Positions 19,551-61,203 of a stretch of DNA of 64,000 nucleotides are shown here, piece after piece. Source of the DNA: Nitrospinota bacterium. Lineage in GTDB: Bacteria; Nitrospinota_A; UBA7883; JACRGQ01. The notes below the pieces were generated by a model, which saw only the letters and a program-made list of their open reading frames with translations, was not told the DNA's origin and made no database searches. Made by a program: the position numbers and the translations under genes. The DNA lies in assembly GCA_029881495.1 (NCBI GenBank), contig JAOUMJ010000002.1, positions 128,087 to 192,086 of the forward strand, in the 5' to 3' direction. How positions within the stretch are numbered: the stretch's first letter is position 1; the number at the start of each line of letters is the position of its first letter.

Positions 19551-20246
19551 GTGAATTATTTTGACCGACTAGGGTTTATATCATCCCGCTCTACAATGGG
19601 ATCTGATATCAGCCTTGTTTTGGCGGTTGTTTTTACATCCATGTTCATTTATGCGGGCTACCTGGCGAGGCAGGGGGACGGCATGGTGCATAGAAGGGTG
19701 ATATTCGGCTCGATGACCGCGATGTTCGGCTATTTTATTTATTACTATAAAATCAGGCGGCTCGGGTATGTCAGCTTTTCGGATCAGCTTGGGATGAGCG
19801 GTGAAAATTCGCTAAGGTCGGCATTATTCAAACCGGTCTTATTGCTCCACTTTACGATTGTCTCCCTTTCCACCTTTGCCTCTTTTTACACGGTAATTTC
19901 CGGCATCAGAGGCGCTGTGTCAAGAGGTGGCAAACTCATACTGGAAAAAACAAGGTTACCGCTGTCGAGACCGCTCTGGATAGCGGGGCTCGTTTGGCTC
20001 GGCTTGTTGTTGTGGTGGGTCTTTTACTGGTGGGGAGGGGTTCACCGCGGCGACCTCGGCCTCACCTACAAGTTGATGTTCGTAATGCTTGGATATGCCA
20101 TCCCTGCCGCAATAGCCTTGACGATTCATAAAGTATTTCCATTTGCCGAGGAGAGACACAGGTTCATGGGGAGGCTAACCGTGGGACTTTTCATCACGCT
20201 GCTCTTCACCAGTATTGCGACCTATTCGCTCCTTTATGTATTTTGA
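19551..20246 (+). CDS. DUF420-like multi-pass membrane protein
   Basis: A 231-residue protein starting at GTG 19551 with five or six hydrophobic segments. VLLLHFTIVSLSTFASFYTVISG and the pattern of conserved His (LLHFTI, VHRRV, TIHKVF) resemble the DUF420/CtaM family, membrane proteins involved in heme A or oxidase maturation in other bacteria. It is the first gene of an operon with a USP and a radical SAM gene, behind a good promoter. The family call is moderate. A link to heme or quinol chemistry is inference from the neighbours. Confidence 0.55.
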   Translation: MNYFDRLGFISSRSTMGSDISLVLAVVFTSMFIYAGYLARQGDGMVHRRVIFGSMTAMFGYFIYYYKIRRLGYVSFSDQLGMSGENSLRSALFKPVLLLHFTIVSLSTFASFYTVISGIRGAVSRGGKLILEKTRLPLSRPLWIAGLVWLGLLLWWVFYWWGGVHRGDLGLTYKLMFVMLGYAIPAAIALTIHKVFPFAEERHRFMGRLTVGLFITLLFTSIATYSLLYVF

Positions 20247-20270: not shown

Positions 20271-21458
20271 ATTGTAAAGAACATATATGTCCTTCTGGAC
20301 AATTCAAAATATTCGCTTTGGAGCCTCGATTTTGCGATAGAACTAGCGAAGGAATCGGGGGGAACTCTTATAGGTAATCATGCCTACGCCGCGAAACTTC
20401 ACGAGGACAGGTTCATTCAGATGGAGCCCGGCCTCCCCGAAAAGTACCAGGAACCGACAGAGCTTCAGAAACAGAGGGATATTCACGGTTCGCTGATAGA
20501 GAAGGGGCTTGAGCTTATTTCCGATTCCTATCTCGATGTGTTCCAGAAGAGATGCGATGAGAATGGCGTAACCTGTCAAAGAAAGATGTCTGAAGGAAAG
20601 AATTACTCGGAGCTTGTGAAAGATATCCAGGGGTCAAATTACGACCTGGTTGCGATGGGGGCGCGAGGCCTCGGCTCGGTGAAAACCACACAGCTCGGCT
20701 CCGTCTGCGAGAGGGTAACGAGAAGGATAAAGGTAGATACCCTGATAATGAAAAACAGCATTAAGGTCCGGGGGGGGCATATTGTGGTCGGCATCGATGG
20801 AAGCGAGGAGTCGTTCTCGGCCATGCGGACAGCTATCCAATTGAACAAGATTATGGGGTGCCGGATATCGGCGCTGGCGGTCTTCGATCCCGATTTCCAT
20901 TACACGGTATTCAACAGCATTGCCAAGGTGCTGTCGGAAGAGGCAGGCAAGGTTTTCAAATTCAAGGAGCAGGAGAAGCTCCATGAGGAGATAATCGATT
21001 CCGGTCTGGAAAAAATATATAAGGACCACCTTGACCAGGCAGTGGCGATGGCCAAAGCCGAAGGGGTTGAGGTCGAAGCCGAAGTCCTTTCAGGAAAGGC
21101 GTTCGATGCTCTGCTTGACTGGATAGAGGGGAAGGAGATCGCCCTCCTTCTTCTTGGAAGGGTCGGCGTACATTGCGATAACGGCCTCGATATAGGTTCA
21201 AACGCCGAGAACCTTCTTAGGAACGCGGATTGCAACATCATGCTTTTCAGCAGCAAGGTGAAGCCGGAATCAAAGGACTATGAAAAGGGGGAACGCATTG
21301 AATGGGAAGCGGGCGCCCTGAAGATGCTGGAGCGGGTCCCATCTTTCGTAAGGAACATGGTGAAAGGGCATATAGAGGCCAATGCGCGGAAAAAGGGGAT
21401 GGATAAAATAACCGAAGAGTACGTTGTAGAACAGCGCAAGAAAATGATGGGGCGGTAA
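20271..21458 (+). CDS. Tandem universal stress protein with C-terminal PCP_red domain; ATT start
   Basis: A 395-residue protein. The first USP domain begins VKNIYVLLDNSKYSLWSLDF and ends near VKTTQLGSVCERVTRRI. The second begins GGHIVVGIDGSEESFSAM (about 165-320). The tail WEAGALKMLERVPSFVRNMVK (about 344-395) is a PCP_red domain, the small helical module of light-independent protochlorophyllide reductase subunits. An in-frame TAA at 20268-20270 directly precedes ATT 20271. No ATG, GTG or TTG follows before ATG 20421, which would remove the first USP strand and helix. GAGAGGG at 20258-20264 is well placed for ATT. The radical SAM gene next door carries the same PCP_red module. Confidence 0.8.
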   Translation: MVKNIYVLLDNSKYSLWSLDFAIELAKESGGTLIGNHAYAAKLHEDRFIQMEPGLPEKYQEPTELQKQRDIHGSLIEKGLELISDSYLDVFQKRCDENGVTCQRKMSEGKNYSELVKDIQGSNYDLVAMGARGLGSVKTTQLGSVCERVTRRIKVDTLIMKNSIKVRGGHIVVGIDGSEESFSAMRTAIQLNKIMGCRISALAVFDPDFHYTVFNSIAKVLSEEAGKVFKFKEQEKLHEEIIDSGLEKIYKDHLDQAVAMAKAEGVEVEAEVLSGKAFDALLDWIEGKEIALLLLGRVGVHCDNGLDIGSNAENLLRNADCNIMLFSSKVKPESKDYEKGERIEWEAGALKMLERVPSFVRNMVKGHIEANARKKGMDKITEEYVVEQRKKMMGR

Positions 21459-21459
21459 A

Positions 21460-23295
21460 GTGTCGTTCATACCTTACGCGGTATCCTGGAACCTTACAAA
21501 AAGCTGTAACCTCGCCTGCAAACACTGCTATATAGACGCAACCGTCCGCGGGACAGGTGGGGACGATGAGCTTTCGACGGAAGAGACATACAAGATACTC
21601 GAACAGATAGCCGGTGTGAATCCCGGCGTGGTGCTGATACTCACCGGCGGCGAACCCCTCATGAGAAGGGACATTTACGACATATGTAAAAAGGCCTCCT
21701 CCCTCGGAATGATGGTTGTTCTCGGAACGAACGGGACGATGATCACAAAAGAAGCTGTCGCGAAGCTGAAGGCGTCAGGCGTTTCCGGCATCGGGATAAG
21801 CATAGACTCCCTAAAGGCCGAAGTGCACGATGCGTTCCGAGGAAGCCCCGGCTCCCTGGCAAAGGGGATGGAGGGGCTAAAACTGGCGCGCGATGGCGGG
21901 CTGGAGATACAGGTGCAGACTTCGGTCTCACATGAAAATGCCGAAGAGATACCGCTCATCGCCGAATGGGCGCACAGACTCGGGGCGAGGGTGTTCAATC
22001 TCTTCTTTCTCGTATGCACAGGAAGAGGGGAGACCGTCACCGATATCTCGCCGGAGGGTTATGAAAAGATACTGAAATGGTCAGCCGACAACCAGGGTTC
22101 CTTTGAAGGGATGATGATAAGGCCGAAATGCGCCCCGCACTTCAAGCGAATACTCTACCAGGCCGACAAGGAGAACCCCCTGCTGAATACATATATCGCC
22201 GCATGCAGGGCCGGAACGCATTACTGCCGGATTACGCCGGAGGGGAAGGTTTCCCCCTGTCCGTACATGCCGGATGTGGCGGGGGACCTTAAAAGCGACG
22301 ATTTCGGCAAAATATGGGGCTCATCGGAGGAGTTTGTCCGGCTCAGAACCCCTGAGTACGGCGGTAAATGCGGAATCTGTCAGTACCGTCTTATGTGCGG
22401 CGGATGCAGGGCGAGGGCGCACGCAACGCTTGGCGATATCATGGCAGAGGATCAGTGGTGCGTGTATGAGCCGCTCTCCGAGGAAGAGGCGATAAGGAAC
22501 GTAGATACGGAATCGAAGTTCGATTCAAGCGCAACCCCGACGCCTTTAAGCGATAAATGGAGCGATGAGGCGAAAGAGAAAATGGGGAAAATGCCGGTAT
22601 TCGCCCGGGCCATAGTACAGAAAACGGTCGAGAAATATGCAGATGAGAAAGGGATAAATGAAATTACGGTCGAGGTGATGAGAACAGCCGCCCCGGCGCC
22701 GGGTCCTTTCGCAAAAAGCATCGAGGAGGCGAAGAAGAGTGAGCCGGTCACTGGCGAACTGGAGTGGGACGACGACGCACGGGAGAGGGTAAAGAACTCC
22801 CCCGATTTCGTGAGGCCCGGCATACTGAAGCTGATGCAGAAGCGGGGGAAAGAGCGGGGGCAGAAGAGAATCACATCCGAATTCCTCACTGAGATACGAA
22901 ACGAGTCGATGATGCTTGTCACCCGTAGGATGAAGAAGCTCGGATTCAGCGAGCTGGACATGAAATCGTGGGACGCGGCAAAGGAGAAGTTCAGCAAGGT
23001 TCCCCACAAACTGAGCGTGATAGACAGGATAACGGGCGCCTTGAAAAGCCGGGAGAAGCCGAATGAGATGATACTGGAAAAATTCGGAACATATTTCGAG
23101 GATGATTCCGAGAAGATCGGCTGGACGAAAGAGGCGCGAGAGAGGCTCGATAAGACCCCTTTCTTCGTAAGGAAAAAGGCGAAAGATTTTATCGAAAATT
23201 ACGCGAAGGAGCATGGCTACAAGTACATCACCGATACAGCGGTAAATGAAGCGATGGAAAAGCTCCCCTTTGCCAAAATGATGAAACGGTCATGA
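21460..23295 (+). CDS. Radical SAM/SPASM protein (NirJ/AhbC/AhbD-like) with three C-terminal PCP_red repeats
   Basis: A 611-residue protein starting at GTG 21460, 1 base after the USP stop. The radical SAM domain has C16-x3-C20-x2-C23 (SCNLACKHCYID) and LTGGEPLMRRD. The C-terminal cluster domain has CRITPEGKVSPCPYMP and CGICQYRLMCGGCRARAHA, as in the heme-pathway enzymes NirJ, AhbC and AhbD. Three PCP_red modules follow: WSDEAKEKMGKMPVFARAI (from about 367), WDDDARERVKNSPDFVRPG (from 436) and WTKEARERLDKTPFFVRKK (from 554). A degenerate fourth may start near 505. The chemistry is probably on a tetrapyrrole or a peptide. Substrate is not readable from sequence. Confidence 0.82.
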   Translation: MSFIPYAVSWNLTKSCNLACKHCYIDATVRGTGGDDELSTEETYKILEQIAGVNPGVVLILTGGEPLMRRDIYDICKKASSLGMMVVLGTNGTMITKEAVAKLKASGVSGIGISIDSLKAEVHDAFRGSPGSLAKGMEGLKLARDGGLEIQVQTSVSHENAEEIPLIAEWAHRLGARVFNLFFLVCTGRGETVTDISPEGYEKILKWSADNQGSFEGMMIRPKCAPHFKRILYQADKENPLLNTYIAACRAGTHYCRITPEGKVSPCPYMPDVAGDLKSDDFGKIWGSSEEFVRLRTPEYGGKCGICQYRLMCGGCRARAHATLGDIMAEDQWCVYEPLSEEEAIRNVDTESKFDSSATPTPLSDKWSDEAKEKMGKMPVFARAIVQKTVEKYADEKGINEITVEVMRTAAPAPGPFAKSIEEAKKSEPVTGELEWDDDARERVKNSPDFVRPGILKLMQKRGKERGQKRITSEFLTEIRNESMMLVTRRMKKLGFSELDMKSWDAAKEKFSKVPHKLSVIDRITGALKSREKPNEMILEKFGTYFEDDSEKIGWTKEARERLDKTPFFVRKKAKDFIENYAKEHGYKYITDTAVNEAMEKLPFAKMMKRS

Positions 23296-23330: not shown

Positions 23331-23360
23331 TCATCCCCGCGAATGCGGGAATCCAGGTGC
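23331..23360. repeat. Short palindromic repeat of dRS3/REP type
   Basis: The segment contains CCCGC-GAAT-GCGGG (23336-23349) within the longer motif TCATCCCCGC...GCGGGAATCCAGG. This arrangement is a very common dispersed palindrome in bacterial genomes. Only one copy was seen in this window. It lies between the radical SAM gene and the HmuY-like gene, just before a second, weaker inverted repeat (GCCTCCTG ... CAGGC) at about 23370-23391. Confidence 0.6.
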
Positions 23361-23439: not shown

Positions 23440-24144
23440 ATGGACAACAACGAAACGCAACAGCCATTTTTCGGAAAGTCGCTGAAGATAATAGGGGGGC
23501 TTTTCTTTTTCATGCTTGTCGGGGTGATGCTCATCGCCTATTCCACTCCGCATAACGTGACGGAAGCGGATATTCAGCGCGCCAAGGATAAGGATCACGC
23601 CACCATTAAGGAGGCAACCGATAAAAATCCCTCCCCGCAGAAGATGGACGGCAAGCTCGGCCCGGTGATCGTATACACTCTCAACGCGACGGAAGAGGGG
23701 AAGTGGGCGCACTTCAGTTTTGAGACAGGTGAATTCTCCTCAGACGAGAAAATAAAGCGGGATACCCTGGACTGGGATATCGCCTTCAGCAGGGCAAAGA
23801 TAGTCACAAACGGCGGCATCACGAATCCGAAGGGGAAGGCCGGGTTGGCGCTGGCAAAGAGTTTTGACTTCGCGTCGGTTGTTGAAGCCCCCAAAGATGG
23901 ATATCTCCCCGACCAGCCGGCGGAGAACGTCACAAGGGCGAGAAATCCGATAATAGAAAAATGGTATGACTACAACTTCTGGAAGCACCGCCTTTCTCCG
24001 CTAGGGACCGTGTACATAATGAGGACGGCAAACGGCGGATACGCGAAATTCCAGATTCTTGATTACTACTGCGAAAAAATTCCAGCCTGCTACACGATAA
24101 AGTACCAGTACGACGGAAGAGGCAAAGCCTCCTTCAAAGAGTGA
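23440..24144 (+). CDS. HmuY-like membrane-anchored protein
   Basis: A 234-residue protein with one N-terminal membrane helix (GGLFFFMLVGVMLIAYS) and a periplasmic domain whose LDWDIAFSRAKIVTNGG and YYDYNFWKHRLSP-like segments match the HmuY family, heme-binding proteins of Bacteroidota also found in other phyla. ATG 23440 is taken as start because AGGAAGG precedes it. An upstream in-frame ATG at 23368 lies in the palindromic repeat region and lacks a signal. In Porphyromonas HmuY takes heme with two His. Comparable ligands are not evident here, so heme binding is unproven. Confidence 0.65.
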   Translation: MDNNETQQPFFGKSLKIIGGLFFFMLVGVMLIAYSTPHNVTEADIQRAKDKDHATIKEATDKNPSPQKMDGKLGPVIVYTLNATEEGKWAHFSFETGEFSSDEKIKRDTLDWDIAFSRAKIVTNGGITNPKGKAGLALAKSFDFASVVEAPKDGYLPDQPAENVTRARNPIIEKWYDYNFWKHRLSPLGTVYIMRTANGGYAKFQILDYYCEKIPACYTIKYQYDGRGKASFKE

Positions 24145-32335: not shown

Positions 32336-34222
32336 GTGGGGAAGAGCAAAATATTTCACAAGTTTTTTTATCGGGTTCGTCTGGAAACCCTTGCCGTCCT
32401 TTTCGTGCTGTCCATAGCCGGATTGGCCGTATCGGGTCCATTTAGCGATAACTTGGCAACACCGGTTTACGCCAGCGAAGAGGCTGACGCGGGAGCCGGA
32501 GCGGATGCCGCAACAGCTGAGGGCGAGGCCGAAGCAGAGGATGACACAGTCTGGAAGCCGATGGCTGCTCCAATACTTGAAGCGAAGGATTATCCGGTAG
32601 TCAAGGGATGGAACAACCGCATTAGCGTCTGGATAGTCGCGCAACTTCATCTCTTTTTTGCCGCCTTTGTTCTTGGCGTTCCGATTTTCGTGTGGGTTAT
32701 CGAATTTATCGGAGTTACCACCAAGGATAAGCGGTACGACAACATGGCTCACGAGTTCATGAAGGTCGCAATGACGGGGTTCTCCCTGACGGCGAGCTTC
32801 GGCGGTGTTCTCGCGCTGATGCTTTTCAGCTTCTACCCTGATTTCATGGAATACATGACAAGCATATTCGGCAAGGTAATGATCTGGTACGGCCTTATGT
32901 TCTTTGCCGAGAGCTTCTTCGTTTATACCTACTATTACGGCTGGGATTCGATGCAGGACGAGAAGGGGAAAAAGATCCACCTCGTGCTTGGCCTTTTCCT
33001 TAATCTCTCAGGTATGACCCTTATGGTTATGTCCAATTCATGGGCTTCCTTCATGATGGCTCCGTCCGGAATTGAAGCCGACGGCACCTTCCAGGGGGAT
33101 GTGTGGGCAGTAATAACAGGACATCTCTGGAATCCGCTCAACCTTCACCGCTTCATCGCGAATATCGCTTACGGCGGTTCGCTTACGGCGGCGTACGCGG
33201 CATACAAGTATATTGCTACCAACAACCAGGAAGAGCGGGCGCATTATGACTGGATGGGCTACACCTCCTTCATTATCGCCATCATCGGGCTGCTTCCGCT
33301 CCCTTTCGCAGGCTACTGGCTTACGAAAGAGGTTTACGATTACTCTCAGCAGATGGGTATCACCCTGATGGGGGGCGTGTTCGCATGGCTCTTCATTATC
33401 CAGGCGGTTCTTATCGGCGCCATATTCCTGTCGGCAAACTACTACCTCTGGTGTAGCCTTTGCAGATCAAGCGGCTCACACAGGTATACAAAGCTTATAC
33501 AGCCGCTTGGTTTAATAATCGTATTCTCATTCCTGATCTGGTTTACGCCGCATACACTGGTTATGACCTCTACAGAACTGAGCCAGATAGGCGGTGCGCA
33601 TCACCCGGTACTTGGACCTCTTGGAGTTATGGCCGCGAAGAACGGAGCGGTTAACCTCCTTATTCTGGCGACTTTCGTAAGTTTCCAGATATTCAGAAGG
33701 AGTAACATCAAGGTAGTCGGGGACGACTACTGGGCGAAGAACGGAACCGCGATTCAGATAGGGCTTTACATCGCCGGCGCCGGAAATGTTCTCATACTGA
33801 GTGTTTACAGCTACTTTATTCCAGCCGCTACCCGTATCGGTCTTTCGATACCGCAGGTAGTTACAACTCTTATAGTCGTCATTGTGGCGATGATAATTGA
33901 CGGCAAGATGTTCAAAAAGACTGAAGATGTAGGAGAGGTTAGATGGGGCACAATGCCAATCCGCTCCCAATATGCGCTCTTCATGCTGGCGGCATCCTTC
34001 ACATGGCTGATGGGCCTGATGGGATATTGCCGGTCGGCTATTCGCCAACACTGGCACGTGTACACGATATTCAGGGATAACTCCCCGGATGCGTTTACCC
34101 CTACTCTGCCTTACGCGGCAGGTATGGTTACCGTAATATGCTGCATATTTATAGCATTGGTACTCTTTATGTTCTGGATGCCTATCCTTGCTTCGAAGAA
34201 AGGAGGGGCAAAACATGGTTAA
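32336..34222 (+). CDS. CydA-like membrane oxidase subunit ('bd-like oxidase')
   Basis: A 628-residue protein starting at GTG 32336, with an N-terminal helix, an acidic low-complexity loop (EEADAGAGADAATAEGEAEA, about 50-70) and about 12-14 membrane helices. CydA-like landmarks: QLHLFFAAFVLGVPIF near the first core helix, SNSWASFMMAPSG (the W..xPxG segment) and NLHRFIANIAYGGSL (heme His helix). CydB is absent. A later PHTLVMT and GGAHHPVLG (His422-His423) are unusual for CydA. This matches the bd-like oxidase described in Nitrospira, proposed to combine bd and heme-copper features. Five c-type cytochromes follow directly, so it may accept electrons from cytochrome c rather than quinol. Confidence 0.78.
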   Translation: MGKSKIFHKFFYRVRLETLAVLFVLSIAGLAVSGPFSDNLATPVYASEEADAGAGADAATAEGEAEAEDDTVWKPMAAPILEAKDYPVVKGWNNRISVWIVAQLHLFFAAFVLGVPIFVWVIEFIGVTTKDKRYDNMAHEFMKVAMTGFSLTASFGGVLALMLFSFYPDFMEYMTSIFGKVMIWYGLMFFAESFFVYTYYYGWDSMQDEKGKKIHLVLGLFLNLSGMTLMVMSNSWASFMMAPSGIEADGTFQGDVWAVITGHLWNPLNLHRFIANIAYGGSLTAAYAAYKYIATNNQEERAHYDWMGYTSFIIAIIGLLPLPFAGYWLTKEVYDYSQQMGITLMGGVFAWLFIIQAVLIGAIFLSANYYLWCSLCRSSGSHRYTKLIQPLGLIIVFSFLIWFTPHTLVMTSTELSQIGGAHHPVLGPLGVMAAKNGAVNLLILATFVSFQIFRRSNIKVVGDDYWAKNGTAIQIGLYIAGAGNVLILSVYSYFIPAATRIGLSIPQVVTTLIVVIVAMIIDGKMFKKTEDVGEVRWGTMPIRSQYALFMLAASFTWLMGLMGYCRSAIRQHWHVYTIFRDNSPDAFTPTLPYAAGMVTVICCIFIALVLFMFWMPILASKKGGAKHG

Positions 34223-35060
34223 TATACTTAAGATCGTAGCGTTCATGGTAGCGGTAATGGTCGCTTTCTCCGGGTACACAACCTATGGAATACCATTGAT
34301 CATTCCCGCTCCACCTCCAGTAGAGGAGAAGATAAGCGGCGATATGACGATGGATCAGTTCATAGCTCTTGGCGAAAAGATCTATAACGGAAAAGGCACA
34401 TGCACACTCTGCCACAACTCGCTCGGCAGGGCGCCGTTGCTCGAGCCGGTAGGAAGCGTTGCTACTGAGAGAATGGCGGATCCCAATTACAAGGGTAAGT
34501 CGAAGACCGTTGAGGAATATCTGCGTGAGTCGTTTGTTGATCCTTCCGCGTATGTCGTACCGGGATTTGGTAAAAAAGGGACGAACGATACGGTAAGCCC
34601 GATGCCGGACGTAAGCAAGGGCGCTATCAGTCTTTCCAATGTTGAAATGGACGCTGTCATCGGATACCTGCAGTCTATTGCCGGGGTTGAAGTAACCGTC
34701 AAGCTCCCGACAGGAGAAGACACAGCTGCAGCCGGTGGCGAGGATGAAGGTGGCGGTGAGATCAAACTCGCGGCCAATGCCAAGGAGGCATTCTCCAAGT
34801 TCGGTTGTGATGCCTGCCACATGGGGCCTGGAATAGCAGAAGGTGGCGACATGGGTCCTGACCTCTCAACGATGGGTAAGTCGGCAGGCACAAGGAAGAA
34901 GGGGATGTCAGCCGAGCAGTTCATCATCGAATCGATCATCGATCCCAATGCGGTTATTGCCGACGGGTTTGATGGAGAAATGATGCCCGACGATTTCGGG
35001 GACCAGATGACGGTCACGGAGCTTAACATGATGGTCAATGCCATACTGGGCAAGAAATAG
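34215..35060 (+). CDS. Membrane-anchored diheme cytochrome c
   Basis: A 281-residue protein. ATG 34215 has GGAGGGG 8 bases upstream and overlaps the oxidase stop by 8 bases. One N-terminal helix (about 5-30) anchors two cytochrome c domains: C63-TLCH67 with axial Met likely in VSPMPDVSKG, and C198-DACH202 with DGEMMPDDFG. A linker rich in Gly/Glu (ATAAGGEDEGGGE type) separates them. It likely passes electrons to or from the CydA-like subunit with which it is translationally coupled. Confidence 0.85.
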   Translation: MVNILKIVAFMVAVMVAFSGYTTYGIPLIIPAPPPVEEKISGDMTMDQFIALGEKIYNGKGTCTLCHNSLGRAPLLEPVGSVATERMADPNYKGKSKTVEEYLRESFVDPSAYVVPGFGKKGTNDTVSPMPDVSKGAISLSNVEMDAVIGYLQSIAGVEVTVKLPTGEDTAAAGGEDEGGGEIKLAANAKEAFSKFGCDACHMGPGIAEGGDMGPDLSTMGKSAGTRKKGMSAEQFIIESIIDPNAVIADGFDGEMMPDDFGDQMTVTELNMMVNAILGKK

Positions 35061-35077
35061 CGGGGGAGTAGACGAAA

Positions 35078-35857
35078 ATGAAATTTGTTAAGCCTTTGAT
35101 TGTAATTGTTGTCTGTTACTTGTTACTGAAAATAGGAATCCCGTTTATAGGTTCAATCCTTCATCCGGGAACATGGCCTGTGGTGCCGACCAGTGTCATG
35201 AAGATGTTCATGTTCTTCGTGGTTACCGGTACCCTCCTGATGTACAGTTTTGATGAGGAGGGTTACGCGGCCTTTGCAGATCCGATCCAGGATCTCTACT
35301 CGAATCCTGAAAAAACGAACGCAAAGTATGCCGTTATAGCAATAATCGGCATATTCGGCGCATACATCACTTACCAGTATGTAAAGCCGACGTTCGATGC
35401 TCCAGTTGAGCTTCGCTCCGTTCACCCCGCGCCTCCAGCTAACGCTAAGGCCTGGGGCAAGAGCTATGCTCTCCAGACTCTCAAAAATCCGTTAAGAGGG
35501 GATAAGGAGAATTTTGCCAAGAATATTGAAGCTGGCGGAGTAGTTTACTACCAGAACTGCTACTATTGCCACGGTGACAGGATGCTTGGGAAAGGGCCCT
35601 TTTTCTCAGGGTTCAATCCACTGCCGGCAAATTTTGTCGACATTGGTACGATCGCTCAGCTCACGGAATCTTTCGTGTTCTGGCGAATTGCCACGGGTGG
35701 ACCTGGCCTCCCTTCCGAGGGTGCGCCTTGGATATCGGCTATGCCGATATGGCATGATCTCCTGAGCGAAGAGGAAGTTTGGCAGGTTATTATGTTCATT
35801 TACGATTATACTGGTCACAATCCGCGCGTTACCACAGCAGTTGCGGAACATAAATGA
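35078..35857 (+). CDS. Membrane-anchored monoheme cytochrome c
   Basis: A 259-residue protein with two or three hydrophobic segments in residues 1-110 (VKPLIVIVVCYLLLKIGIPF; MKMFMFFVVTGTLLMYS; KYAVIAIIGIFGAYITY) and one heme c site C161-YYCH165 in a periplasmic C-terminal domain with ISAMPIWHDLLSEEEVWQVI, which supplies the axial Met. The topology resembles subunit FixO/CcoP-like or Nitrospira bd-like partner cytochromes. A GGGGGAG ribosome site precedes ATG 35078. Confidence 0.83.
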   Translation: MKFVKPLIVIVVCYLLLKIGIPFIGSILHPGTWPVVPTSVMKMFMFFVVTGTLLMYSFDEEGYAAFADPIQDLYSNPEKTNAKYAVIAIIGIFGAYITYQYVKPTFDAPVELRSVHPAPPANAKAWGKSYALQTLKNPLRGDKENFAKNIEAGGVVYYQNCYYCHGDRMLGKGPFFSGFNPLPANFVDIGTIAQLTESFVFWRIATGGPGLPSEGAPWISAMPIWHDLLSEEEVWQVIMFIYDYTGHNPRVTTAVAEHK

Positions 35858-35870
35858 TGGGTGAGGGAAG

Positions 35871-37418
35871 ATGATGTTGAATAGGATTAAAAAGATGAGA
35901 TTAAAGGAAGTCGTTTTATTTCTTGCGGCATTCATGTATTTTGCCGCGTCTTCCGCCTCTGCCGCTCCGGGTAACGCAGAAAACGGCAAGACGATATACA
36001 TGAAGAAATGCTGGTGGTGCCATGGAAAAGAGGGCGAGGCCGACGGTCCAGGCGCGGAATTCATGATTCCGCCACCGCGTGATTTCAGCCTTGGAATGTA
36101 CAAGTACAAGACAAGCACCGTAGACAGGGTAGTGGTCAGGGACGAAGATATCTTCGATATGATCACATACGGTATGCCTGGCACATCGATGCCGTCATGG
36201 AAAGAAGTTCTGAACGATCAGGAGAGGTGGGACCTCGTTGCGTTCGTCAAGTCGCTTACCGACATGTTCGAAGGCGCGGATAATCCCCCAGCACTCGACC
36301 TGAGCAAGAAAGTATCAAGCTCGGCAGACAGCATCGAAAAAGGGAAGAAGGCCTACGATGATGCGAAATGCTGGGAGTGTCACGGTAAAGAGGGAAAAGG
36401 CGACCTCATGAAAAAGCTGAAAGAGGATTCCGGTTCGCGCGTATGGCCTAGGAACTTAGCAAAACCTTGGACATTCCGCGTTAGCAACAATCCCGAGGAT
36501 ATATACGCCAGAGTGACGAACGGTATTCCGGGTACGCCGATGACATCCTTTGCCGCAGAGACAACCGGAAACGGAAAGCTCTCGGAAGAGGACAGGTGGC
36601 ACGTCTCCAACTACGTCGCTTCGCTTGCGGACCCGAACAGGGCTACAAAGCAGGGGCAGATAGTTGTAAAGGCTATCCAGACAGAAGCTCTCCCTGCGGA
36701 TGAGAATGATCCGGCATGGGAAGGCTTTGAAGGGACCGCTTATTTCCTCGTTCCGCAGATAATCGCTGCAGAGAGGTTCTTCATTCCTTCGAACGACCTC
36801 GTGATCGTAAAAGCCGCGTTTACCGAAAACGAGATAGCTTTCCTTCTTGAGATCGACGACAGGACAAAGAGCGTTCCCGGCAATTCGGACGCCGCTGCGA
36901 TAGCTTGGGGCAACCTGACGCCGGACGCGCTTGCGATACAGACTCCGGTCGTAATTCCGGATTCGGCTGAAAAACCGTATTTCGGACATGGCGATGCTTC
37001 GCACCCGGTTTCGATGCTCTACTGGAACAGCGGTTCCACTGAAAGCGGACAGATAGCAAAGATGATGACCACTACAGGCCTTGGCAAAATGGAAGCGAGC
37101 GATGTAGCCGCCGCAGGATTCACCGCCACCTCCACATATAATGCTGGAACCTGGAAGGTCATGATGAAGAGGAGCCTCGCTACGAATAATCCTGAAAAGG
37201 ATACTCAGTTCGTCGCCGGCAAGTACATCCCGATAGCGTTTGCGAACTGGGACGGCTCGAACGGCGAAGCAGGCTCGAAGCACACCATGACCACATGGTA
37301 CTGGCTGTTGCTCAAGCCCCAGACCGGAAGCTCGGTAGTCCTTCTTCCACTTGCAGTACTCTTGGTGCTGGTTGGCGGACAGGTCTGGATTTCCGGGCGT
37401 ATGAAGAATAAGGCGTAA
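35871..37418 (+). CDS. Diheme cytochrome c fused to an ethylbenzene-dehydrogenase-type heme b domain (NxrC-like)
   Basis: A 515-residue protein with signal peptide (to about residue 33). Two c-type domains carry C47-WWCH51 and C167-WECH171 with Met-bearing YGMPGTSMPSW and GIPGTPMTSF. Residues about 265-480 form an EB_dh domain like the gamma subunit of DMSO-reductase family type II enzymes (NxrC, EbdC, ClrC), which binds one heme b. AERFFIPSNDLVIVKAAFTENEIAFLLEI and YWLLLKPQTGSS lie in this part. A C-terminal helix (VVLLPLAVLLVLVGGQVWIS) anchors it. No alpha or beta molybdo-subunit is nearby, so it works here as an electron carrier with the oxidase cluster. Confidence 0.8.
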   Translation: MMLNRIKKMRLKEVVLFLAAFMYFAASSASAAPGNAENGKTIYMKKCWWCHGKEGEADGPGAEFMIPPPRDFSLGMYKYKTSTVDRVVVRDEDIFDMITYGMPGTSMPSWKEVLNDQERWDLVAFVKSLTDMFEGADNPPALDLSKKVSSSADSIEKGKKAYDDAKCWECHGKEGKGDLMKKLKEDSGSRVWPRNLAKPWTFRVSNNPEDIYARVTNGIPGTPMTSFAAETTGNGKLSEEDRWHVSNYVASLADPNRATKQGQIVVKAIQTEALPADENDPAWEGFEGTAYFLVPQIIAAERFFIPSNDLVIVKAAFTENEIAFLLEIDDRTKSVPGNSDAAAIAWGNLTPDALAIQTPVVIPDSAEKPYFGHGDASHPVSMLYWNSGSTESGQIAKMMTTTGLGKMEASDVAAAGFTATSTYNAGTWKVMMKRSLATNNPEKDTQFVAGKYIPIAFANWDGSNGEAGSKHTMTTWYWLLLKPQTGSSVVLLPLAVLLVLVGGQVWISGRMKNKA

Positions 37419-37454
37419 ATTAATTTTAAAAACGTGAAAGAGGAGGTTACTCGA

Positions 37455-38129
37455 GTGAACAGAATGATTGTTTTGTGCTGTCTCATGCTGGCAGTAATGT
37501 TCGGTACGTCAGCAATGGCGGCGGATGGAAAAGGCATCGTGGACAAGAACAAGTGTGGAAGCTGCCATAAAATGTCCGGCCCGGCTGTAAAGACCATCGC
37601 TGAAGTAATGAAAAGGAAAGCGCCGGATCTCTTTTATGCAGGTAGCAAGTTCAACAAGGATTGGCTGGTAGGATACCTCCAGAACCCGACCACTTTAAGG
37701 CCGGCTGGAACGGTTTACCTCAACAACATCACAACCGAAGGGGATACCGACAAGGTGAAAGGGGCGCCTGACAAATGCGCTTCCAAACTGAGCGCAGGCG
37801 ACGCAGCAGCAGCTGCCGACTACCTCATGACCCTCAAGGACAAGTCGATGAAGACCGGTGTTGCGAAGATCGGTGATTTTTCATCGGCAAGGGCGAAACT
37901 CCTTATGACAAAGGATAACGCCTGCAACGCGTGCCACGAACTTCCGAAAAAGGGGGGCGGTCTTTCCTGTCCGACATTCGACGGAATCGGCGCAAGGCTG
38001 AATCCCGACTGGATGTACAGCTTCATTCAGGACCCCACACACTGGGATCCGAGGGTATGGATGGCAAAAGGGACATTTGACGATGCCCAGTTGCAGTTGA
38101 TGGTCAATTACCTCTCCTCGCTTAAATAG
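37455..38129 (+). CDS. Periplasmic diheme cytochrome c
   Basis: A 224-residue protein. GTG 37455 is preferred over GTG 37434 because AGGAGG (37441-37446) lies 8 bases before it. The signal peptide ends near GTSAMAADGKG. Heme sites are C34-GSCH38 and C157-NACH161. The first domain shows AEVMKRKAPDLFYAGSKFNKDWLVGYLQNPTTLRPAG, a pattern of cytochromes of oxidase subunit II type. No membrane helix beyond the signal is seen, so it is soluble. It is the fourth cytochrome of the run. Confidence 0.83.
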   Translation: MNRMIVLCCLMLAVMFGTSAMAADGKGIVDKNKCGSCHKMSGPAVKTIAEVMKRKAPDLFYAGSKFNKDWLVGYLQNPTTLRPAGTVYLNNITTEGDTDKVKGAPDKCASKLSAGDAAAAADYLMTLKDKSMKTGVAKIGDFSSARAKLLMTKDNACNACHELPKKGGGLSCPTFDGIGARLNPDWMYSFIQDPTHWDPRVWMAKGTFDDAQLQLMVNYLSSLK

Positions 38130-59381: not shown

Positions 59382-59403
59382 AAATTTGAGGGGGTGAGTG
59401 ACT

Positions 59404-61203
59404 TTGAAAAAATATGTTGCCTATTTTATGGCGATAGCTGTTGCGTCCGTGTTTTCATGGAGCACAACGGCAGAAGCTAAAAAAGTAGTGCTGACCGAGT
59501 TTGATAAACGCGATTGGCACGTAACAGAAGGCCAGGATAACGACTCCCCGTTACGCGACTACGCAATTCTTTATGATGCGGGTGGTGTTGACGGTGCTCT
59601 GGGCGTTATCGGTATACCTTCAATGAGGACCTACAGGCACATCAGGTGTGGTGTTGACTTGCACAACTTCCCATTTTCGGGATCAAACGCAGGTAACAAC
59701 AACGGTACTCCGGACGGTAAATATCTCTATGTTTCCGATAAGGGTTCCGACACAATTGCCGAGGTAAACCTGCAGACAGGTTGGGTTGAGAGAATTTTCG
59801 CTCTGCCGAAACCTTTTGGTATCCATCACAGTGCGGCTCTTGCACCGAACGGTAAATACCTCTTCGCAACTGGAGAGCTTACCGGTAAAATGCTCAAGCT
59901 TCGCCTTGAAGATGGCGCTACCACAGTTCTTGATATTCCGCCTGCACCTAGCGCACCGGACTATCCTGACACCAGCAAAGATGGTAAATACGTTTTCTCC
60001 GGAAACTATTATCACTCGGCTATTATGGTGTTCAGCCAGGATCCCTTTAAGCTTATTAAAGAGATTCCAGTTGGTAAGAACCCACACGGTACGAACGTAA
60101 GCCCGACAAACAGGATCGTAGCAGTCTGCGATAAACTCTCAGCTACCATTTCGGTTATCGACGTGGAACAGCTCAGGGTCGCAAAAGTTATTCCTGTTGG
60201 TGCGGGTCCGCTTCACAACCAGTTCGACACGCTTGGAAAGTACGACTACATTTCCTGCTTCGTGTCTGACTCTACTTCGAAACTCGATATGCAGAGAATG
60301 CAGTTGGTTGACGAGTTCCCGATTCACTACCGCGTTGGTCACAACTCAATAGCTCCTGACAACGGGTACTATGTTTCGCAGAACAAGTTCTCCACCGGTC
60401 TCTTTACTCCGACCGGTATCGTTTTCGCAGTTAACTTCGAGCTTCAGGATATCGACGAGTCTTCCGACACATACGGTAAGTCCGTTAAGATCATCCCTGT
60501 TGACGGCGAGCCGCATGAAGGAAGGATGATTTTCGCATCCTACATTCAGAGGTGGAACACCGGTAAGGGCGAAGAGCTCTTCTCGAAAGGTTATAACCTT
60601 GGTGACTACCATGTAAGCTTTGATGTTGGACCTGGTGTCAACAGCAAAACAAGGCCTCAGCTTGAGCCTGCTCACTGGAAAAACACCAAGAAATACTGGA
60701 TCGCAAGGGATAACGGTAAACCTGGTATAACAAAAGAAGGCGATGTTCATGTTATTCGCATAAAAGCCTTCTCATACGGTTATGTTCCAAGGTTTATCCA
60801 CGTTCCTCAGGGCGCGAAAGTCCGCATAATCTTCACAAACATCGACAAAGCGGCCGGTCTTACAAAGAACCCGGACGTTACGATGGGTATGGCAATATAC
60901 GGTCACTACGGCTTCAGGACCATGATCATTGGTCCTCGCGGTATGTCGGCTGTTGCCGAGTTTGAAGCAGATAGAGCGGGCGAGTACGAGTTCTACTGCC
61001 AGCACTTCTGTGGTCCGTTGCACCTTGAGATGCGCGGTACCTTCTTCGTTGATCCGAAAGGAAAACAGGCTTCTCTTGCAGTTGGTGACTACGACCGCGT
61101 AGCACAGCAGGAACAGCTGGTAGACGAGGGAGAGCGCGAGTGGCTTGTTGGTACAAACAGGCTCCTTAACAAGCTCAAAGAGGGTAACGAACCCACCATA
61201 TAG
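59404..61203 (+). CDS. Divergent nitrous-oxide-reductase-like copper protein (beta-propeller plus CuA cupredoxin)
   Basis: A 599-residue protein with a Sec signal (to about residue 24, TTAEAKK; no twin Arg). TTG 59404 fits the GAGGGGGTG ribosome site better than GTG 59398. Residues about 60-440 form a YVTN/lactonase-like propeller (DGKYLYVSDKGSDTIAEVNLQTG). Histidines match NosZ CuZ positions: H87 in DLHNF, H141 in GIHHSA, H228 in NPHGTNVSP, H271 in GPLHNQFD, H313 in VGHNS, H371 in GEPHEG. The C-terminal cupredoxin has CuA ligands H501, C532, C536, H540, M543 (C-x3-C-x3-H-x2-M). The usual His-His pair is His-Asn at 87-88, though H142 could supply a seventh ligand. It is about 40 residues shorter than common NosZ. 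Probably reduces N2O, but another substrate is possible. Confidence 0.75.
   Translation: MKKYVAYFMAIAVASVFSWSTTAEAKKVVLTEFDKRDWHVTEGQDNDSPLRDYAILYDAGGVDGALGVIGIPSMRTYRHIRCGVDLHNFPFSGSNAGNNNGTPDGKYLYVSDKGSDTIAEVNLQTGWVERIFALPKPFGIHHSAALAPNGKYLFATGELTGKMLKLRLEDGATTVLDIPPAPSAPDYPDTSKDGKYVFSGNYYHSAIMVFSQDPFKLIKEIPVGKNPHGTNVSPTNRIVAVCDKLSATISVIDVEQLRVAKVIPVGAGPLHNQFDTLGKYDYISCFVSDSTSKLDMQRMQLVDEFPIHYRVGHNSIAPDNGYYVSQNKFSTGLFTPTGIVFAVNFELQDIDESSDTYGKSVKIIPVDGEPHEGRMIFASYIQRWNTGKGEELFSKGYNLGDYHVSFDVGPGVNSKTRPQLEPAHWKNTKKYWIARDNGKPGITKEGDVHVIRIKAFSYGYVPRFIHVPQGAKVRIIFTNIDKAAGLTKNPDVTMGMAIYGHYGFRTMIIGPRGMSAVAEFEADRAGEYEFYCQHFCGPLHLEMRGTFFVDPKGKQASLAVGDYDRVAQQEQLVDEGEREWLVGTNRLLNKLKEGNEPTI

Follow-up and report, generated by a model that had tools for sequence, protein, structure and literature searches.

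The window analysed here is a stretch of 64,000 nucleotides from a draft Nitrospinota genome (2.82 Mb, with a computed completeness of 97%). Two adjacent genes on its forward strand form the subject of this study. The first (20271..21458, + strand) encodes a protein of 395 residues in which a tandem universal stress protein (USP) is followed by a C-terminal PCP_red domain. The second (21460..23295, + strand) starts with GTG and encodes a radical SAM/SPASM protein of 611 residues that ends in three PCP_red copies. As originally predicted, the genes are one base apart, since the stop codon of the USP gene ends at 21458 and the next start lies at 21460.

The Usp profile of Pfam matched the first protein in two copies (109.3 bits), and PCP_red was found at residues 345-385 (21303..21425, + strand; 44.9 bits against a cut-off of 32.5). 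The ATP motif GX2GX9G(S/T) was conserved in both USP domains (G130, G133, G143 and S144; G296, G299, G309 and S310). Profile and motif together indicate a universal stress protein of the predicted ATP-binding type. The histidine and methionine residues H37, H44, M51, H72, H210, H238 and H301 were found to be invariant in the family. The AlphaFold2 model (pLDDT 90.0, pTM 0.79) gave the ATP-bound tandem USP TTHA0350 (3ab8) as its top PDB match in Foldseek. In the alignment with relatives, the ATT at 20271 coincides with their methionine; the gene apparently opens with this rare start codon, and GAGAGG lies a few bases upstream.

The second protein displayed Radical_SAM (95.1 bits) and SPASM (31.7 bits) matches in Pfam. 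Its PCP_red score of 130.5 bits was spread over three stretches on the + strand, 22558..22689 (57.4 bits), 22765..22896 (35.5 bits) and 23122..23253 (59.4 bits), the same cut-off of 32.5 applying. The matches cover model positions 1-41 to 1-44 of the 45 in PF08369 and are thus near full length, so the proposed PCP_red identity was borne out for both proteins. The CX3CX2C cysteines (C16, C20 and C23) were conserved, as were the SPASM cysteines C249, C267, C304, C307, C313, C316 and C334, and on these motifs the protein is assigned to the radical SAM/SPASM family. For its AlphaFold2 model (pLDDT 86.9, pTM 0.66), the top PDB match in Foldseek was PqqE (6c8v).

The original prediction allowed for three, perhaps four, PCP_red copies on the radical SAM protein. 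The three were confirmed, while the suspected fourth (residues 494-548; 22939..23103, + strand) was ruled out. It scored -3.6 bits with the profile, and its profile-profile probability was 18% in local and 0.4% in global mode, compared with 97-99% among the three true copies. In the AlphaFold2 model the segment is helical, and the tail of a Nitrospirota protein in which PCP_red stands alone is homologous to it; we describe it as a helical spacer. A genome scan recovered the same four copies, all of them in the pair, and no BchB-type copy was found by it in the source genome.

In Manganitrophus, the radical SAM gene has a single PCP_red copy, and next to it comes a separate protein with four copies. 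The C-terminal part of the latter is homologous to the C-terminal half of the window radical SAM protein (E = 1e-19), and another Nitrospirota protein matches with E = 1e-22. Based on these homologies, the window gene appears to have arisen by the joining of a single-PCP radical SAM gene to a multi-copy PCP_red gene.

Directly upstream of the pair lies a DUF420-like membrane protein gene (19551..20246, + strand), whose Pfam score of 30.5 bits is exactly at the cut-off; such a protein also precedes the pair at four other loci (L040, L042, L044 and L057). Downstream, a gene of the HmuY-like family of heme-binding lipoproteins was found (23440..24144, + strand; 65.8 bits in Pfam), with counterparts near the pair at L052 and L057. 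A short palindromic element, CCCCGCGAATGCGGGA, occupies positions 23331-23358 in the interval that separates the radical SAM gene from the HmuY-like gene, and is of a kind often repeated in bacterial genomes.

A cytochrome bd-like oxidase cluster (32336-38129) is located 9 kb downstream of the pair. It comprises a CydA-like subunit (32336..34222, + strand; PF01654, 87.8 bits), c-type cytochromes (34188..35060, 35078..35857 and 37434..38129, all on the + strand), and a diheme cytochrome c with a heme b (EB_dh) domain that resembles the "alternative NxrC" (35871..37418, + strand; Pfam Cytochrom_C and EB_dh). The latter matched the NCBIfam type II DMSO reductase gamma model below its cut-off. The CydA-like gene was the sole CydA-family match in the source genome, and PF01654 aligned to its product over positions 3-242 of 418 only. 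It is probably an oxidase of the OR-N CydAA' type, for which a CydA-like N-terminal part, accompanying c-type cytochrome genes and distinctness from the quinol-oxidising CydA serve as criteria. The defining paper for the OR-N oxidase families is reportedly Murali 2021.

Distribution of the pair and its association with a bd-like oxidase

Of 24 Nitrospinota genomes, 23 contained PCP_red, and most of these had the USP/radical SAM pair, the two genes being separated by a few bases or overlapping slightly. When the radical SAM protein was used as a single query against genome contigs, it gave no match. A profile search with the USP alignment yielded 455 candidates, the best 80 of which came from Nitrospinota, Nitrospirota (including Manganitrophus), Beta- and Gammaproteobacteria, Deltaproteobacteria, Chloroflexi, Tectomicrobia, Rokubacteria and Bacteroidota. 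For 48 loci the sequence extended far enough downstream, and at 36 of them a radical SAM gene with PCP_red followed on the same strand within 3 kb. The number of PCP_red copies per USP protein ranged from none (in split or cut-off frames) to five. A third partner recurred, a zinc-ribbon-like protein of 130-250 residues that starts with CxxC...CxxC and carries PCP_red (for example at L177), in which Pfam names the PCP_red copies only. The conservation of the pair, on which the original prediction depended, thus extends to many phyla. It is a widespread module and apparently an undescribed one; a search of one collection of open-access papers for PCP_red together with USP or radical SAM proteins returned nothing relevant.

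In other phyla, the neighbours of the pair were CydA-like proteins, EB_dh cytochromes c, HemY, an Mrp/NUBPL protein and SCO1/DUF420 proteins. HemY stood beside the pair at 14 of the 65 non-Nitrospinota loci, as judged from protein cluster membership, and two members were confirmed with 288 and 240 bits to TIGR00562 of NCBIfam (cut-off 97.85). A profile built from the CydA-like proteins near the pair (A3) separated the bd-like oxidase from canonical CydA by hundreds of bits.

Among 274 gammaproteobacterial genomes, the pair was present in ten and the oxidase, at more than 100 bits, in twelve, including all ten. The status of the pair was set here by open-frame lengths and the clustering of copies, and not every protein was read. 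The oxidase therefore accompanied 10 of 10 genomes with the pair and 2 of 264 without it (Fisher p of about 1e-16). The genomes within each phylum are related, so that the counts made within a phylum are inflated and p-values such as this one overstate the evidence. The two exceptions (G148 and G249) lie on contigs shorter than 9 kb, and incomplete assembly may possibly account for them. Canonical CydA matches (25-56 bits) were present in none of the ten genomes with the pair and showed no association.

Similar results were obtained elsewhere. In 118 Nitrospirota genomes, PCP_red occurred in all 41 with the oxidase, and the oxidase in 39 of the 40 with at least two PCP_red copies against 2 of the 78 others; three genomes with the oxidase (G387, G408 and G424) carried only a small PCP_red protein. 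Among 161 Chloroflexota genomes, the oxidase exceeded 100 bits in 12 of the 15 non-phototrophic ones with multiple PCP_red copies against 0 of the 146 others, and the remaining three had weaker CydA-like genes beside their PCP_red genes. All 32 pair-bearing genomes of other groups gave an A3 match. The pair is associated with a non-canonical bd-like oxidase, and it was this main lead that the original prediction left out.

The distance between pair and oxidase was mostly 5-15 kb in Gammaproteobacteria; in Nitrospinota and Nitrospirota the two were not always close. The scattered presence, together with the linkage, argues for transfer of pair and oxidase as a unit, and hence for a shared task.

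Relationship to tetrapyrrole enzymes

The best family profiles for the radical SAM protein were NirJ2 (TIGR04055, 330 bits) and AhbD heme b synthase (TIGR04545, 327.5 bits), in agreement with the NirJ/AhbD-like character that had been predicted. Both scores are well below the equivalog cut-offs of 500, and the score with NirJ (TIGR04051) was 177 bits against a cut-off of 515; none of these identities was accepted. BchB/ChlB (TIGR01278) was rejected as well, the match being confined to the C-terminal 50-60 positions, with the nitrogenase-like catalytic part missing.

The source genome contains separate AhbC (526-578 bits) and AhbD (478 bits) genes that adjoin each other, this AhbD itself scoring just under the cut-off of 500, and a NirJ-like protein (469 bits) in another cluster. 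A tree was built without experimentally characterised references, and in it the radical SAM proteins with PCP_red from all phyla formed one clade (45 members, support 0.90), apart from AhbD and from the AhbC and NirJ of the same genomes. The distinct clade and the separate AhbC gene led us to reject AhbC as an identity. A clade of its own, together with the presence of AhbC, AhbD and NirJ in the source genome, suggests that the radical SAM protein does a different job.

Ferrochelatase (PF00762) was absent from the source genome and from 23 of the 24 Nitrospinota genomes, and AhbD-like genes were present in nearly all of the 24, which is consistent with heme being made by the AhbC/AhbD route in Nitrospinota. 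The pair was considered as a substitute for the missing heme enzyme, and this was rejected because AhbC and AhbD are present. The contig also carries, about 40 kb upstream of the window, a NirJ-like gene flanked on either side by a beta-propeller-like protein, one of which has heme c motifs; the arrangement resembles a heme d1 cluster (L167:968-5063). Within the window, positions 59398-61203 encode a beta-propeller protein that gave weak matches of cytochrome d1-like and cupredoxin-like type.

Solved PCP_red domains comprise 2kru and 2l09 as well as BchB chains. In order of phylum, further fusions were found in a deep-branching member of Nitrospinota, where an AhbD-like protein (471 bits to AhbD) ends in PCP_red (L036:3848-5236; 44.5 bits); in Nitrospirota, where PCP_red is joined to the Cld/HemQ family (chlorite dismutase, PF06778; L173:2036-3061 and L174:1240-2256; 69 and 59 bits); and in Chloroflexota, where it is joined to a NIR_SIR (siroheme-reductase-like) and ferredoxin-type protein (L175:2022-3017; 77 bits). 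The two Nitrospirota genomes have this single PCP_red gene and no match to the bd-like oxidase. The AhbD-like, Cld/HemQ-like and NIR_SIR partners are all tetrapyrrole enzymes or relatives of them. These fusions, together with the HemY genes near the pair, support a link of PCP_red to tetrapyrroles.

Other contexts do not point the same way. In several Nitrospinota, a stand-alone PCP_red gene of 56-61 codons adjoins a MoaA-like gene (L055:5310-6489, L058:3481-4694, L060:5324-6573, L064:7189-8859, L065:6912-8093 and L066:1918-3095), with MoaA confirmed by NCBIfam at L055, L060 and L064; this does not fit a tetrapyrrole role. A rubredoxin-like domain was found with three PCP_red copies in a stand-alone Nitrospinota protein (L033:3309-4160) and, slightly below the Pfam cut-off, with three copies inside a Nitrospirota USP protein (L179:853-2976). 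The moaA neighbours and the rubredoxin-like and zinc-ribbon-like combinations count against a module strictly for tetrapyrrole binding. Of the predicted role for PCP_red, a recognition module for a tetrapyrrole or a common partner, the tetrapyrrole link is supported, while a strict form is disfavoured; the original interpretation as a whole is partly supported.

Proposed role of the pair

The likeliest role of the pair is to make, carry or insert a tetrapyrrole for the bd-like oxidase. A more specific version, to which we give an even chance, is that it constitutes a maturation module for the tetrapyrrole cofactor of this non-canonical oxidase, the radical SAM protein acting on an iron porphyrin and the USP serving as carrier or gate. 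The two proteins would be cytosolic partners. The radical SAM protein, which is paralogous to AhbD and NirJ, would modify side chains of heme or coproheme; AhbD and NirJ work on propionate side chains (PMC7242693), and side-chain modification is for this reason the favoured reaction. The PCP_red domains on both proteins may retain or transfer the tetrapyrrole, or dock one protein to the other. With the help of ATP, the USP domains would then supply the product to the presumptive clients, the oxidase or its heme partners, into which it would be inserted.

Among the alternatives, the likeliest is that PCP_red is a general domain for partner binding or for electron-transfer docking on iron-sulfur enzymes, although we consider this improbable. 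The small genes beside moaA and the rubredoxin-like and zinc-ribbon-like segments speak for it, and BchB, the radical SAM proteins and the NIR_SIR protein are all Fe-S enzymes. The Cld/HemQ-like partner, however, belongs to a family that to our knowledge has no Fe-S cluster, and, leaving aside moaA as a neighbour, the catalytic partners that turned up all bind tetrapyrroles or have them as substrates.

The top match to PqqE counts against an iron porphyrin as substrate. The nearest solved folds in Foldseek (PqqE, SkfB and SuiB) are all peptide modifiers and the set of SPASM cysteines is complete, so the radical SAM protein could instead modify a polypeptide, such as an oxidase subunit or one of the oxidase's cytochromes c, with PCP_red as a docking domain for the client. 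This is judged unlikely. The family profiles favour tetrapyrrole enzymes, for which there was no solved structure among the matches, and the adjacency of HemY and the fusions of PCP_red to heme enzymes point away from a peptide.

Equally unlikely, in our estimate, is a role in heme sensing or detoxification, with the USP as a sensor of ATP, heme or redox state, and with excess heme degraded or remodelled by the radical SAM enzyme. The USP fold, its strictly conserved His and Met residues and the HmuY-like neighbour would suit such a role, but a general heme-stress system would be expected neither to track a single family of oxidases this tightly nor to be missing from almost all other gammaproteobacteria. 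That the radical SAM protein is a second AhbD, or a NirJ for heme d1, has the poorest prospects of all: it belongs to the same family, and without ferrochelatase heme must come by an AhbC/AhbD-type route, but the genome's own AhbC, AhbD and NirJ, the low scores, the separate clade and its occurrence beside HemY stand against it.

If the pair is a maturation module, there should be a specific reaction of the radical SAM protein and a USP that carries heme, and expression of the oxidase in another host should require the pair. This reading can be extended, rather doubtfully, to a broader proposal. The pair, in many genomes with the zinc-ribbon-like PCP_red protein, would make an undescribed heme and supply it to the bd-like oxidases, those of nitrite-oxidising and manganese-oxidising bacteria among others, and PCP_red would be a general tetrapyrrole hand-over domain common to chlorophyll, heme, heme-decarboxylase-like and siroheme enzymes. 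These oxidases may be the terminal oxidases of the major nitrite oxidisers, or may run in reverse electron flow. A dedicated maturation module would offer a handle on their cofactors and a testable route, and a domain known from chlorophyll synthesis would gain a wider role.

Comparison with known systems

The bd-like/alternative NxrC cluster has been described in Nitrospina, Nitrospira and anammox bacteria (PMC3578206, PMC8026999, PMC6606698) and has the same make-up as the one in the window. The passages on the cluster make no mention of the USP/radical SAM pair, and the first of these papers calls the function of the oxidase enigmatic (PMC3578206).

The window USP protein shares two ATP-motif domains with the tandem-type universal stress proteins TTHA0350, UspE and Rv2623, from which it differs by its PCP_red tail and by many family-specific invariant residues, namely the His and Met positions given above. 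With BchB/ChlB, a subunit of the dark-operative protochlorophyllide reductase, both proteins have the C-terminal PCP_red in common (PDB 2kru, 3aek, 2xdq and 2ynm), whereas the nitrogenase-like catalytic part is found only in BchB/ChlB. The radical SAM protein belongs to the same radical SAM/SPASM family as AhbD and NirJ, scoring 328-330 bits with the models of AhbD and NirJ2, yet it falls below the family cut-offs, bears PCP_red and occupies its own clade. The component families are known, and their combination, their spread and their tie to the oxidase appear to be new.
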